Part shown: piece after piece, positions 6,295 through 64,000 of the stretch | How positions within the stretch are numbered: position 1 is the stretch's first letter | Layout: each line of letters begins with the position of its first letter | Source: Chondrilla cf. caribensis | Taxonomy: Eukaryota > Porifera > Demospongiae > Chondrillida > Chondrillidae | DNA length: 64,000 bases | Direction of reading: 5' to 3' | NCBI GenBank assembly: GCA_964020155.1 | Contig: OZ026547.1 | Location: forward strand, 5,353,009 to 5,417,008 | Position numbers and translations under genes: made by a program | The notes under the pieces: generated by a model | Databases searched by the model: none | The model's input: only the letters and a program-made list of their open reading frames with translations | Told to the model about the DNA's origin: nothing

Positions 6295-8115
6295 ATGGCT
6301 CCAAGTATTCAGGTGTTCGTACAAGTTGCTTTTTTGTGCTGTGTGGTGACCTCCAGTATGGCGAGTATCCCTGATTGGCCAAAGGCATTCTCACAACTTG
6401 AAAACAAAGTGAATGTGCAACAAGAAGAAATAAAGTCACTCCACCAAATAATAGAACAGTTGGAGAAGAGACTGGAACAACTTGAAGTGAAAGGTGAGTT
6501 TGGTGATGTTCATGTGCAGCCTCAAATCCGTACTCCTCATTCCTGTTAGTCAGGACCTCCCTCCTTTTGGAGTATGTTTATCTGCTTCATTGTATCATGT
6601 CTTTCTGAGTCAGTCAATATTAAGCCACTACATGAGTAATTATACAATGTTGAATTCCACCAGTACTGGTGGAGTACAATATATTCCAAGAATTTCTAAT
6701 ATCCCTGTGGATTGGAAGTAAGATGTACAGGAATGTACTACTTTGTGTGGCAGTTAAAAATATTTTTTGGAGGTAAAAAGGAAACTTTGGGCCGCTTTCT
6801 TGAACCAGAATTGCTTTAGTGCCTTTTTTCAGTTCAGAGAACCTTCACAATATATGTTATGTTAGGAGAATCTTCTGGACTCGAGACATCATAGTTATTC
6901 AATTTTTATTTCTCACCAATTTCAATATCAGCCTTTTTCCACACAGTATACAACATGTGGGGATGTATTTTGTGCAGATAGCTGGTGAACCTAGATCATG
7001 TCAAACAAGTATTTATAGTTTGAAAACTCATGGAGTTATTGCCTCATGCATGTGAAATACTTGAGCATACGCATCATTCTTATGCTGATATCTATATATT
7101 TAATGATATTATATGTACACAAATTTATTATACTACATCTTTCAGATAAGCGAGATATACTGAAAGTTATTCCATATTATTTCAACATAATTGTGAATGT
7201 ATGCAAAAGTGTACACAGCGTGGATGATCACTTGGATCTCCCAAGCAACAAAATTAATCCATTTCTAGTCTATGTGACTGGTACATAACATAGAGCAGAG
7301 AAAAAATAAAATCACTTCTCCGTACAGGAGAATCTGTGACTACCTGTTATCTCAGGGATATTTGGTAGCCCAATTTCCATATTAATTACTTTTTGTCACA
7401 TCAATCATGTTGCTCATTTGGATAATATAGACTCATTGTTCTTTCAACAGATAAACTCCTGGAAAGAAGTAGACGACAAGATGTTTGCAATTGTCCACTT
7501 GGACCAAAAGGGGCTAGAGGAACACCGGGACTGAATGGGATAAATGGAACAAAGGGTGAAAAGGGAGACCCAGGGCAACATGGGGACAGGGGTGACAATG
7601 GAGAACTAGGTCTGCCAGGACCCCAAGGACTAAATGGAACAAAAGGTGAACGTGGTTATACAGGAGAACCAGGGAATGTTGGGCCGAAAGGTGAATCAGG
7701 AATGAAAGGAGACACAGGAGTGCCAGGACTTAATGGAACAAAGGGTGAACGTGGAGAAAAAGGACAACCAGGGAATATTGGACAGAAAGGTGAACCAGGA
7801 ATGAAAGGAGAGCAAGGTCCAAGAGGTAAGAAGGGAAAGCGAGGGGAAAAAGGGGTGCCAGGAATATCAGGATCACCAGGTCATAATGGAACAAAAGGTG
7901 AACAAGGGGAAAAAGGACAACGCGGGAATATTGGACAGAAAGGTGAACCAGGACGTAAAGGAGAGCAAGGACCACAGGGACTTAATGGAACAGAGTGTAA
8001 ACTAGAAAGTGATGCACCGAAAGGTCCAGGACAAACAATTTCACCAACACCTGCAATTTCACCAACCCAAGTTACACGTTCACCAACACTTACAGGACCA
8101 CCACATAATAGCTAA
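6295..8115 (+). CDS. Collagen array gene A: coiled-coil, furin-site, short-chain collagen
   Basis: Exons 6295-6493 and 7451-8115 (donor AAAG|GTGAGT, acceptor TTTCAACAG), phase-1 intron of 957 bp, predicted 287 residues. Residues 1-23 are a signal peptide ending near SMA|S. Residues 32-66 form a heptad coiled coil (FSQLENKVNVQQEEIKSLHQ...) that could nucleate the trimer. Residues 72-75 are RSRR, a furin consensus, just before C79-N-C81. A Gly-X-Y helix runs from about 84 to 248 with repeated GLNGTKGE; it is closed by NGTEC, and a 39-residue Ser/Thr/Pro tail follows. It contains one RGD (in GDRGDNG). It has no C1q, NC1 or transmembrane domain. Likely a secreted structural or matrix collagen; which structure it forms is unknown. 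The start is set by homology to all sister copies. Confidence 0.85.
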
Positions 8116-8494
8116 TATACTGCATCTACCATCCATTGATCTGGAGGTGGAGCTCAAATACTTCATGCAATTGCTAGCCATATGCCATATGTTGTTAATG
8201 TTTAATTGCATTTTACCTGTTGTGAAAATTGATATAATAGCACCGTAATTACTATCTATCAAACAACACCATTATAACTGTAATAATAATAATAATAATA
8301 ATAGAGATTAAATCAAGCATGAAATATATAATCCAATAACAATAGCAATTATAAGTCTTAGAATGTTATAATCAAACACAGCATGCAACAAACCTAGACG
8401 TACATATGCATTTGAATGTTATCTATCTAGGTGTACCACATGACCTTCTGCCATGGCAAGATCAGCTGCACTCATATCCACTCAGCTAGGATAA
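8116..8494. other. 3' flank of gene A
   Basis: AT-rich 3' flank, alignable by eye with the flanks after B, D and G. It holds a short (TAA)n run near 8281-8302 and the string GCATGCAACAAACCTAGACGT shared with those copies. It probably contains the 3' UTR; no clear AATAAA was assigned. Confidence 0.5.
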
Positions 8495-9065
8495 TGGTGT
8501 GATGACCTTGATCTCTGGAGGTACTGACCGACAATCTCAAGATGGCAAAACTGAGGCAACAATGAAGCATCCTCAATACGATACTGTAGGTCAAGTGGTG
8601 TTTCACAGCCTGCAGAGAAACAATGTTACAAATATGGCAGGTTCAGTTTCACAAATCCTTCCCTCATATTTAAGTCTTATCTCACGTTCATGATGCCTGT
8701 AGCATGTAGCGGTCTGGAGAGATTTGTTTGATTCCCCCCAAAAAACCACTTACCACAACATCTAGTTTATAATTAGGATCAACATTAGTGGCAGCACTGA
8801 AGGTCGAGAGTGTGTGCCCACCAAAGGTTACAGATGTGGCTCAATGCAGACATCATGGCAAACTTCTGTAAGAAGATTGGCCACATTATCACAGACTGGT
8901 AGTTCCACCTGTGGGGCAAGTCAAAGCATGCTCTGTGTTAACGATGGGTCCACAAGCACATTCACTATGTAGGTTGGTGGGTGTCCATCCATAGCCAAGA
9001 CAGAGTACATCATGCACAGAAAGGGGCCTTTATGGAGGGCAAACCCATGAGCAGTGATGGGAAGT
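8495..9065 (-). pseudogene. Decayed retroelement ORF, C-terminal domain (type i)
   Basis: On the minus strand, reading from 9065 to 8495, broken frames resemble the C-terminal part of a retroelement polyprotein common in marine invertebrate genomes: a region like 'RDALCLxYGW', a CxCG...HALTCPTGG zinc-finger-like motif, then RxNE. The same fragment lies after B, D and G, where it reads more clearly. It is full of stops and frameshifts. Family assignment is from memory of similar proteins. Confidence 0.5.
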
Positions 9066-9229
9066 GCAGTTAACCGGCTGTAGGCTCCCTTCTCACTGGT
9101 TAATTCAACAGATCTAGCACCCAGATGGCATAGACCAGTATGGGTTACGTGGATTCCTTTTCCTTATACTCTTTCTGCTTCCATGTGGTATTTTTCCATT
9201 CACAAATAAACTTCTTCTTTTGTAATTCA

Positions 9230-61921: not shown

Positions 61922-62076
61922 GAAACTACCCCACACATGTGAATCAACTCATTTACACCAGAGCAGAATTGCTAAGGATTCCAATATCTCATGGTATGTG
62001 TATAGGTAGCTAGGCATATTCATTGAACAAATATCATTATGAATATCATTGAAAGTGGGAGTATCCTCCCTCTGAC

Positions 62077-62083
62077 TATAAAA
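62077..62083 (+). promoter_or_regulatory. TATA box, gene J
   Basis: TATAAAA, 78 bp before the ATG, with the dyad ATATTCATTG...TATGAATATC near 62016-62047. Confidence 0.75.
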
Positions 62084-62154
62084 GCTGACTGTTCTGTTGT
62101 GGTTACCACACACTAGCCCAGAAGAATTAAGTGACTGGAGCTACAGTAACTGTT

Positions 62155-64000
62155 ATGGCTCTAAGCATTCAGGTTATTCTACAAGTGGCTCTTTTGTACT
62201 GTGTGGTGACCACCAGTATGGCGGGTATCCCTGATTGGCGAAACGAATTGTCACAGCTTGAAAAGAAAGTGGAGATACAACAAGAAGAAATCAAGTCACT
62301 TCACCAGATCATAGAACAAGTGGAGAAGAGACTTAAACAACTTGAAGTAAAGGGTTAGTTTGATGAGGTTCAAGTACAGCCTGTAGTTCCCACTCTTCAT
62401 TCCTGTTAATCAATGCTCTCCCCCTCTTGGTAGGATTACTTCCTTGTATGATGTCTCACTAAATCAGACAGTATTAAGAATGTTCATTAGTAATAATAGA
62501 ATTGTGAATTAAACCTGTACTGATGGACTACTCATTCCAAACATTTTGAAAACCTCAATGGATTGGGAGTTACACATACAGGAATGAACTGTTTGGTGTG
62601 GTGGTTAAAATGGAATCTGCTCAAGTTAAATAAACTCATGGGGCTGTTGCTTTAGACCAGAATTGCTTGAGTGCCATTTTCAGTTCAAAAGAACCTTCAC
62701 ATAAGAAATTACACTAGGAGAATCTTCTTGACTCAAGTTTTAATAGGTATTCAATTGTAAGTTCTCAACATTCCTAGGTCCGCCTATATTTTCCACACTA
62801 TATACATTATGACACCTCGCTACATACCTACGTATACCTAGATCTTATCAAACAAGTATTTTATATTTGAAAACTCATGGAGTTGCCACCTCATGCACTT
62901 GAAATACTTACCTCATTTCTATTAATAATAATAATCTGAATATACTGTTGTAGCTACATGTAGAAATGTAAGCAGGCAAGGGTAACATACAGGAAGCCAT
63001 TATTCCAGCATAATTGTGAATACGTGCAAAAATGACACAGCCTGCTTGGATGACCATTTGGATTTTCCCAACAACGAATTAACAAACTCCATTGTTGAAT
63101 TAGTACAACAGTACATAACATCATATGGGAAAAATGAATTAACTAATCTGTCCCTAGCTGTTGTCTCAGGGATACGTGTCAATCCAATTTCCAAATTGAA
63201 TATAGTATGTCACATCGATCATGTTGCTAATTTGGATTATATGGACTCATTGTGTTTCAACAGATAAACTCCTGGAAAGGACTAAACGACAGGATGATTG
63301 CGGTTGCCCACCTGGAGAAAAGGGGGCTAGAGGAACACCAGGACTGAATGGGATAAATGGAACGAAGGGTGAAAAGGGAGATCCAGGGCCACAAGGAGAC
63401 AGAGGTGAAAAAGGTGATCTAGGACAGCCAGGATCTACAGGACTCCAAGGACCGCAAGGACTTAATGGAACAAAAGGTGAACATGGAGAAAAAGGACAAC
63501 CAGGGAATGATGGACAGAAAGGTGAACCAGGAGTGAAAGGAGACAGAGGAGTGCCAGGACGTAATGGTACAAAGGGTGAAGACGGAGAAAAAGGGCAACC
63601 AGGAAATATTGGACAGATAGGTGAACCAGGAGTGAAAGGAGAGAAAGGTCCAAGAGGTAAAAATGGAAAGCGAGGAGATAGGGGAGAGCCAGGAATACCA
63701 GGACCACAAGGTCATAATGGAACAAAAGGTGAACGAGGAGAAAAGGGACAGACAGGGAATGTTGGACAGAAAGGTGAACCAGGACTGAAAGTAGAGCAAG
63801 GACCACAGGGATTCAATGGAACAGAGTGTGAACTTGGAAGTGATGTAATGAAAGCTACAGGACAAAGAAGTTCACCAACACCTGCTACTAATTCATCAAT
63901 GCCTCCTACAAGTTCACCAACATTTACTACTATTTCATCAACACCTACAAGTTCACCACCACCTGCTACTATTTCATCAACACCTCCTACAATTTCACCA
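62155..64000 (+). CDS. Collagen array gene J (runs off the right edge)
   Basis: Exon 1 62155-62353 and exon 2 from 63264 to beyond the window; intron 910 bp. The donor is GTTAGT, poorer than GTGAGT, and reading through it meets TAG at once. At least 312 residues: signal peptide, coiled coil (LSQLEKKVEIQQEEIKSLHQ), RTKR furin site, D-D-C-G-C-P, Gly-X-Y helix with five NGT modules and an RGD (GKRGDRG), NGTEC, and at least 50 residues of Ser/Thr/Pro tail. One helix glycine is replaced by valine (codon GTA at 63791, GLKVEQG). Closest to gene I. Confidence 0.8.

Follow-up and report, generated by a model that had tools for sequence, protein, structure and literature searches.

What is encoded by ten blocks of Gly-X-Y triplets that lie in tandem on one strand of a 64-kb stretch of DNA? 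We call this whole stretch, which occupies 5.35-5.42 Mb of contig C2 in an assembly of 137 Mb and 37 contigs, the window. The window probably samples an animal gene family of very large size and common regulation, which encodes short secreted collagens whose chains would be nucleated by a coiled coil, cut by a convertase and locked together by a Cys-x-Cys (CxC) motif. Three features read from the DNA go beyond an earlier note on the locus: a shared promoter, a trimerisation motif in the coil, and a repeat of 33 residues that contains an N-G-T sequon.

The ten blocks (c1 to c10) hold 30-77 triplets each and all run on the + strand. Nine are preceded by an exon 1 encoding a putative signal peptide and coiled coil, and these first exons follow one another at 4.2-9.2 kb. 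Exon 1 ends in a phase-1 GT donor and exon 2 is preceded by an AACAG acceptor (in c2, CCAG 11 nt further on), giving an intron of 840-1337 nt in the nine copies. For the seven copies whose joined frame is unbroken and lies wholly inside the window (c1-c6 and c9), the predicted proteins have 257-347 aa, in which a hydrophobic start of ~23 residues leads into a coil of ~35 residues, a basic site, CxC, the Gly-X-Y helix, usually a Cys, and a Ser/Thr/Pro tail. Among the nine second exons that have a 5' end, CxC stands immediately N-terminal to the helix in all nine and the strict basic site R-x-K/R-R in eight. A Pfam search with c4 gave 131.3 bits for Collagen (PF01391; cut-off 27.2) as the only match over cut-off, and no known C-terminal trimerisation domain.

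The copies are not uniform. Intact-looking two-exon genes are c1, c3, c4, c5, c6, c9 and c10, the last truncated at the window edge. Spliced at its normal acceptor, c2 would soon run into a stop, and only the acceptor 11 nt further on keeps the frame open, with KTRR as its basic site. The first exon of c8 is frame-shifted by a 4-nt deletion relative to c2, and c7 consists of the 3' part of exon 2, with neither exon 1 nor basic site. There is neither a post-helix Cys nor a tail in c3, there are two Cys in c6, and a single Gly break lies near the helix end in both c4 and c10. The earlier note had given all copies one architecture; this was too strong because c2 needs the shifted acceptor, c8 has a 4-nt deletion in exon 1 and c7 is a fragment, and c3, c6, c4 and c10 depart from it as well. 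Its ten-copy array survives as ten Gly-X-Y blocks in tandem on the + strand, with nine exon 1s and not as a family of ten. The order it proposed (signal peptide, coil, convertase site, CxC, Gly-X-Y, Cys, Ser/Thr/Pro tail) does fit the sequence, and the basic site recurs on other chromosomes.

Related first exons are spread through the genome. A 66-residue exon-1 query of the window type gave at least 150 scored matches among 280 candidates, and a second query, of a type found on C9, gave at least 150 among 269; 72 loci from the second were added by hand as absent from the 150 of the first. The two combined give a minimum of 222 exon-1 loci, distributed over ten contigs (C2, 121; C9, 50; C5, 28; C8, 12; C7, 5; C3, 2; C6, C14, C16 and C17, 1 each). 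Stops interrupt four of the 72 loci taken from the second query and none of the 150 scored exon 1s of the first. On C2 the exon 1s have a median spacing of ~7.1 kb over the interval 5.23-5.83 Mb. A search of the genome with Pfam Collagen returned at least 170 matches among 2714 candidates, those listed lying mostly on C2, C9, C5 and C8. Pairs of exon 1s with identical scores stand ~73, ~81 and ~148 kb apart at ~5.44-5.60 Mb of C2 (for example 5457561/5538174 and 5437584/5585789), a pattern that suggests either recent segmental duplication or an effect of assembly. These pairs, and the intact, shifted and broken copies side by side, fit the suggestion that the cluster is actively evolving.

The family extends to further deposited contigs, which may come from this species or a different one: a protein search with an exon-1 alignment gave 571 matches at E<=0.001, and 117 of the 120 listed were from ENA, the other three being the window's own. 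Residues 1-105 of spliced c4, used as a protein query, found nothing among 29 candidates, and viral contigs yielded no relatives. Titles and the starts of abstracts in the open-access literature held no description of this collagen family, a weak negative with subscription papers and preprints outside its scope.

Members fall into two types. Type A (the window, C2, C3, C16 and parts of C5 and C9) carries ...QLEKRLEQLEAK followed by DKLLERTKRQDDCxCPPG. In type B, which occurs on C8 and C9 and includes a short-coil relative on C5, the coil is another one and is followed by ...LQRMRRG, a Pro/Ser/Thr linker and CxC (CxxC in L064); its exon 1s are 52-60% identical to that of c1. Relative to type A the coil is 7 residues shorter in L064, 11 longer in L049 and 15 longer in L052, steps that a coiled coil tolerates with its phase kept. 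The order of elements is identical in exon 2s on C2, C3, C5, C8, C9 and C16, and exon 2 open reading frames (ORFs) of other chromosomes terminate in Cys, Ser/Thr/Pro or helix. Across 58 Gly-X-Y starts (some places counted twice), R-x-K/R-R occurs in 43, CxC before the helix in 43 and both in 41. The 15 starts without a basic site are c2, c7, a piece in L060, eight exons of L068, two antisense frames and two frames beside masked runs; only c2, c7 and the L060 piece are clear family members. L068 (C1:6784700-6794600) is a separate multi-exon collagen gene with Gly-Glu-Pro-rich exons, outside this family. A type-A relative on C9 (L056; 2064000-2071500) holds one Gly-X-Y open frame of 1007 codons, far exceeding the window copies.

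The copies also resemble one another ahead of the coding sequence. The 150 bp upstream of the nine window ATGs are strongly alike, and three elements occupy fixed places in all nine: AATGAATATC-TTAAAAGTGG at 111-117 bp, a TATA element at 70-78 bp, and GTGGTTACC, which resembles a Runx site, at 53-56 bp before the ATG. The 21-nt box 1, of the AATGAATATC-TTAAAAGTGG type, has nine matches in the window (<=3 mismatches, both strands), each preceding an exon 1. Genome-wide, 335 matches were counted at <=3 mismatches, against one for the reversed pattern. The 100 that were listed lie on C2, C5, C6 and C9, and 79 of them precede an already scored exon 1 (the distance allowed being 60-160 bp for the + strand and, for the - strand, 60-420 bp towards lower coordinates). 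Six of the remaining 21 were read: four lead to a previously unscored open exon 1, which in L076 encodes a shortened coil; of the other two, one leads to a frame-broken exon 1 and one to none. Box 1 thus finds members outside the set from which it was built, since four of six led to such exons. Promoter boxes are shared by copies on several chromosomes, and by types A and B.

The gene total is at least 220 and perhaps more than 300, over many chromosomes; extrapolation gives a family of ~300 if the 235 unlisted boxes behave like those listed. A family confined to ten copies, as had been supposed, is contradicted by the 222 or more exon-1 loci and the 335 boxes, and the scale had been underestimated more than 20-fold. 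At C5:2714700-2715200 (L078) the promoter box is intact and exon 1 frame-broken. At C9:2733430-2733930 (L077) both promoter boxes are present with no open exon 1 behind them; the place may be a relic, or the promoter may serve a different gene there.

We examined the coil in 42 type-A exon 1s, drawn from 65 rows after removal of duplicate places, the frame-shifted c8, type-B rows and short-coil rows. All 42 hold R-h-x-x-h-E, which the excerpted text of PMC3653964 describes as a trimer determinant of coiled coils. The motif puts Arg at position g of the heptad, hydrophobic residues at a and d, and Glu at e. The a columns (F/L, V, I, I, L) and d columns (L, Q/S, L, L, L) are hydrophobic but for one Gln/Ser layer, and both types mostly close the coil with R-L-x-x-[LI]-E. 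AlphaFold2 models the monomer with a helix at 28-65 (mean predicted local distance difference test score 89-92 over residues 31-60; predicted template modelling score 0.38), and also predicts a helix at 5-23. Pfam Trimer_CC matches the coil weakly (E 0.15), and a PDB search returned collagens and chance coils, with coronin-1A (2akf) as a weak coil match (E 1.5). The ratio of nonsynonymous to synonymous substitution rates (dN/dS) for these 42 window-like copies is 0.43 over exon 1, 0.36 in the coil and 0.66 in the linker, which indicates that purifying selection acts on exon 1. The proposal that the N terminus is a removable trimeriser is strengthened by the motif in 42 of 42, the basic site, the signature of purifying selection and the promoter, all of them read from sequence.

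The helix itself has a biased composition. Counts were made over 35 blocks and 2736 triplets of both types (window and L049-L067), with masked frames and Lys/Glu-poor antisense blocks removed; they are not independent of one another. Asn at the Y position is followed by Gly-Thr in 193 of 272 cases, against 23.8 expected under independent positions. Lys-Gly-Glu and Lys-Gly-Asp (KGE and KGD) together number 508 against 224.7 expected. The commonest N-G-T spacing is 11 triplets (48 times) and the second 5 triplets (31 times); the former corresponds to a 99-nt repeat (33 residues) that is also called by a tandem-repeat finder. To our knowledge, a glycocollagen with regular N-G-T sequons within its triple helix would be unusual. 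According to the part of PMC7824840 drawn on here, KGE and KGD pairs act as triple-helix stabilisers in collagen peptides.

These features suggest how the proteins might be made. One transcription programme would turn on many copies in a single secretory cell type or stage, and a cleavable signal peptide would bring the chains into the endoplasmic reticulum. There a parallel coiled coil of 35-45 residues, carrying R-h-x-x-h-E, could register three chains, from which the triple helix would zip from N to C terminus. Lys-Gly-Glu/Asp pairs, which are frequent, would stabilise this helix, and the regularly spaced N-G-T sequons would carry N-glycans. A furin-like convertase would cleave at R-x-K/R-R and set the coil free. 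In type A this cut would mostly leave an N-terminal Gln near CxC, whose disulphides may lock the trimer. The C-terminal Cys and the Ser/Thr/Pro tail would join trimers into an extracellular matrix and hydrate it, and the many similar chains would allow for dosage and mixed trimers.

Several points weigh against this reading. We infer the splicing of exon 1 to exon 2 from sequence, as we do trimer formation, cleavage, glycosylation, disulphides and function, and the use of convertase site, sequon and Cys is assigned solely by motif match. The promoter is not uniform: exact GTGGTTACCA lies within the 260 bp upstream of 31 of 43 type-A ATGs (the window nine included) and six of eight type-B ATGs, and a TATA-type word lies 64-83 bp before 31 of the 43 type-A ATGs but only one of the eight of type B. 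Box 1 was listed at 100 of its 335 places and its surroundings were read at six, and working genes must number fewer than 335 because several copies (c7, c8 and L078) are broken. Outside the set of 42, the coil motif has exceptions, with Lys for Arg in L051 and Phe in L075, and the coil of L076 has lost five residues, which is no heptad step. The estimate of selection comes from a favourable sample, since the 42 exon 1s are among the most window-like, and in these the core columns of the coil showed no significant excess of conservation over random coil columns (P = 0.18). The N-G-T and KGE excesses are overstated because the repeats are internal duplications. Finally, the N-terminal hydrophobic stretch might escape cleavage and serve as an anchor.

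That last point is the basis of a different reading, in which the N terminus is a type II membrane anchor until a convertase sheds the ectodomain, as in the membrane collagens known as MACITs. The succession of hydrophobic stretch, coil, basic site and collagen is the same as in MACITs, and 117 of the 173 worm cuticle collagens are predicted to be type II in the excerpts of PMC10538796. We consider such an anchor unlikely, since the stretch is ~18 residues long, has no Lys or Arg in its first six positions in 40 of the 42 type-A exon 1s and carries small residues at -3 and -1 in all 42, as in cleaved signals; moreover, there is no cytoplasmic stretch that could form a cytoplasmic domain.

Diversity might instead be the purpose of the family, its members forming a polymorphic soluble or surface repertoire for recognition of self and non-self or for binding microbes, the helix serving as a stalk or to display glycans. 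Hundreds of clustered paralogues that vary in helix length, N-G-T number and tail, with broken and duplicated neighbours, do resemble recognition families. We give this reading little credence, in that c4 has no domain but Collagen over the Pfam cut-off, the exon 2 ORFs of other chromosomes end as described above without a recognition domain, and amino-acid change is not in excess in exon 1, the one part measured. It is more improbable still that the array is mostly decaying or neutrally amplified, with few working genes and motifs inherited through recent duplication. The broken c7, c8 and L078, the dependence of c2 on a shifted acceptor, and introns nearly as alike as exons in close pairs (c9/c10, 93% in the intron and 97% in exon 1) would fit decay. 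Against it stand the dN/dS of 0.43, the lack of stops in 150 scored exon 1s, and promoter boxes that are kept in both types, the exon 1s of type B being 52-60% identical to that of c1.

Large collagen families cut by convertases are already known, from the nematode cuticle. The earlier note recognised no described family with this order of elements; nematode cuticle collagens and MACITs in fact offer close parallels. Nematode cuticle collagens (Col_cuticle_N; for example SQT-3 and DPY-17 of Caenorhabditis elegans) are the closest in working, with many genes, an N-terminal convertase site and, in part, signal sequences. They are short chains with Cys next to the helix. The family described here is likewise a large multigene family of short chains (at least 222 loci; 257-347 aa, some relatives being longer). 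What sets it apart is one strong coil with a trimer motif, a helix that bears N-G-T sequons, genes built of two exons, and promoter boxes common to the copies. Excerpts of PMC10538796 count 173 cuticle collagen genes, 56 of them with a signal sequence and 45 of these 56 with an N-terminal RxxR; RxxR occurs in 109 of the 173, and cutting by BLI-4 aids secretion of the two collagens tested.

The likeness to cuticle collagens does not extend to their N-terminal domain. Col_cuticle_N (PF01484) is absent from the Pfam matches of c4 at E<=0.1 and from those of c1 and type-B N termini at E<=10, where filters drop most matches above 0.1. Across the genome itself five matches to the domain reached E<=1, all of them under the cut-off and away from the family clusters, with the best (E 0.047) on C24. 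The origin of the family is apparently separate from that of nematode cuticle collagens, to judge from these profile searches. Nematode origin or membership was ruled out as a candidate, PF01484 being below cut-off.

MACITs (types XIII, XXIII and XXV, and COL-99) share with the family a coil and furin-type site N-terminal to the helix. They differ from it in that the chains here have a likely signal peptide, one short helix and Ser/Thr/Pro-rich tails, and come from hundreds of genes. In the sections of PMC4678570 that we used, the MACIT coil and furin site precede the collagen, and cleavage sheds the ectodomain. As type II membrane proteins MACITs have a cytosolic domain; their helices are interrupted, their last 34 residues are conserved, and they are restricted to bilaterians, with a single gene in invertebrates. 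Two further groups are short collagens. Spongin short-chain collagens are found in sponges and other invertebrates and are defined by a C-terminal NC1 domain (PMC5395295, in excerpt). They too are short but carry NC1, which the Pfam search did not find in c4; genome-wide, NC1 (C4, PF01413) gave no match, yet the controls were silent too, so that absence from the genome is not implied. Cnidarian minicollagens polymerise through Cys. Compared with them, the chains here have one CxC and a coil, and by eye no Cys-rich minicollagen domain or polyproline stretch. The consulted portion of PMC4863159 describes minicollagens as short nematocyst collagens.

Taken further, and only tentatively, the data could mean that a non-nematode animal, possibly a sponge, independently evolved a cuticle-collagen-like system of ~300 or more genes, exceeding the 173 of the worm. 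It would spread one promoter design over several chromosomes and combine a disposable coil with a ladder of N-glycans, one cell type secreting mixed glycosylated trimers as bulk matrix. If so, it would rank with the largest known families of collagens. A second large family of convertase-cut collagens, apparently arisen on its own and equipped with a trimer coil, would show that this route to a body matrix can evolve more than once. The shared promoter offers a testable handle, in that one motif should mark the cell type, its regulator and further genes under it.

The copies are arranged as follows, all on the + strand. In c1, box 1 (6182-6202) lies 113 bp upstream of the ATG; exon 1 (6295-6493) encodes signal peptide and coiled coil with RLEQLE, and exon 2 (7451-8115) encodes RSRR, CxC, 55 Gly-X-Y triplets, Cys and a Ser/Thr/Pro tail (model 287 aa). 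Box 1 of c2 (13579-13599) stands 116 bp before the ATG, followed by exon 1 (13695-13893) and, from the shifted acceptor, exon 2 (15155-15729; KTRR, model 257 aa). The box of c3 (17838-17858) has three mismatches; exon 1 (17951-18149) ends at a GTGATT donor, and exon 2 (19447-20192) encodes RIKR, CxC and 77 triplets with a stop directly behind the helix (314 aa). The longest model, c4 (347 aa), comprises box 1 (24502-24522), exon 1 (24613-24811) and exon 2 (26149-26993), with RTKR, CxC and 71 unbroken triplets before the one break. In c5 box 1 (30941-30961) precedes an exon 1 (31058-31268) with a 4-codon insertion close to the signal cleavage site, and exon 2 (32220-32902) encodes RTKR, CxC and 58 triplets (297 aa). 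Box 1 (35121-35141), exon 1 (35238-35436) and exon 2 (36337-37022) make up c6, with RTRR, CxC, 39 triplets, two Cys and a long Ser/Thr/Pro tail (294 aa).

The remaining copies include the two broken ones. The 3' part of exon 2 that is c7 spans 40198-40590, with no promoter box within 38000-40300. In c8, box 1 (44197-44217) and the frame-shifted exon 1 (44314-44508) are followed by an open exon 2 (45471-46138; RTKR, 56 triplets). Box 1 (52823-52843), exon 1 (52940-53138) and exon 2 (53979-54718) form c9, with RTKR, CxC, 46 triplets and a long Ser/Thr/Pro tail (312 aa). In c10, box 1 (62038-62058) and exon 1 (62155-62353; donor GTTAGT) precede an exon 2 that ends at the window edge (63264-64000), with RTKR, CxC, 53 triplets and then a Gly-to-Val break. 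Most copies have a long (CA)n or (AG)n run some hundreds of bp ahead of exon 1 (5836-6036, 13168-13497, 17552-17653, 24032-24366, 30741-30834, 52563-52662 and 61831-61923), with none at c6 and 16 nt at c8.

Other elements lie between the copies. No Rfam families or tRNA were found in the window. An integrase ORF at 20930-22126 (-), presumably from a Gypsy-type retroelement, overlaps the stretch directly behind c3; its H2C2 zinc finger is over the Pfam cut-off and its core just below. At 48834-49949 (+) is an ORF with a reverse transcriptase (just below cut-off) and GIY-YIG, a pairing that we assume to be that of Penelope-like elements, and at 50158-51192 (-) a 344-aa open frame with no Pfam match at E<=0.1. 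A 187-nt unit is repeated in tandem between c9 and c10 (55800-59435), with 13.5 copies at 55800-58325 and 3.5 at 58779-59435. Elsewhere in the genome, silicatein was sought as a marker for demosponges with spicules; the best 4 of 16 listed matches all carry the cathepsin Cys and not Ser, and these four are cathepsin-like exons, not silicatein. An 18S rRNA gene lies on C19.

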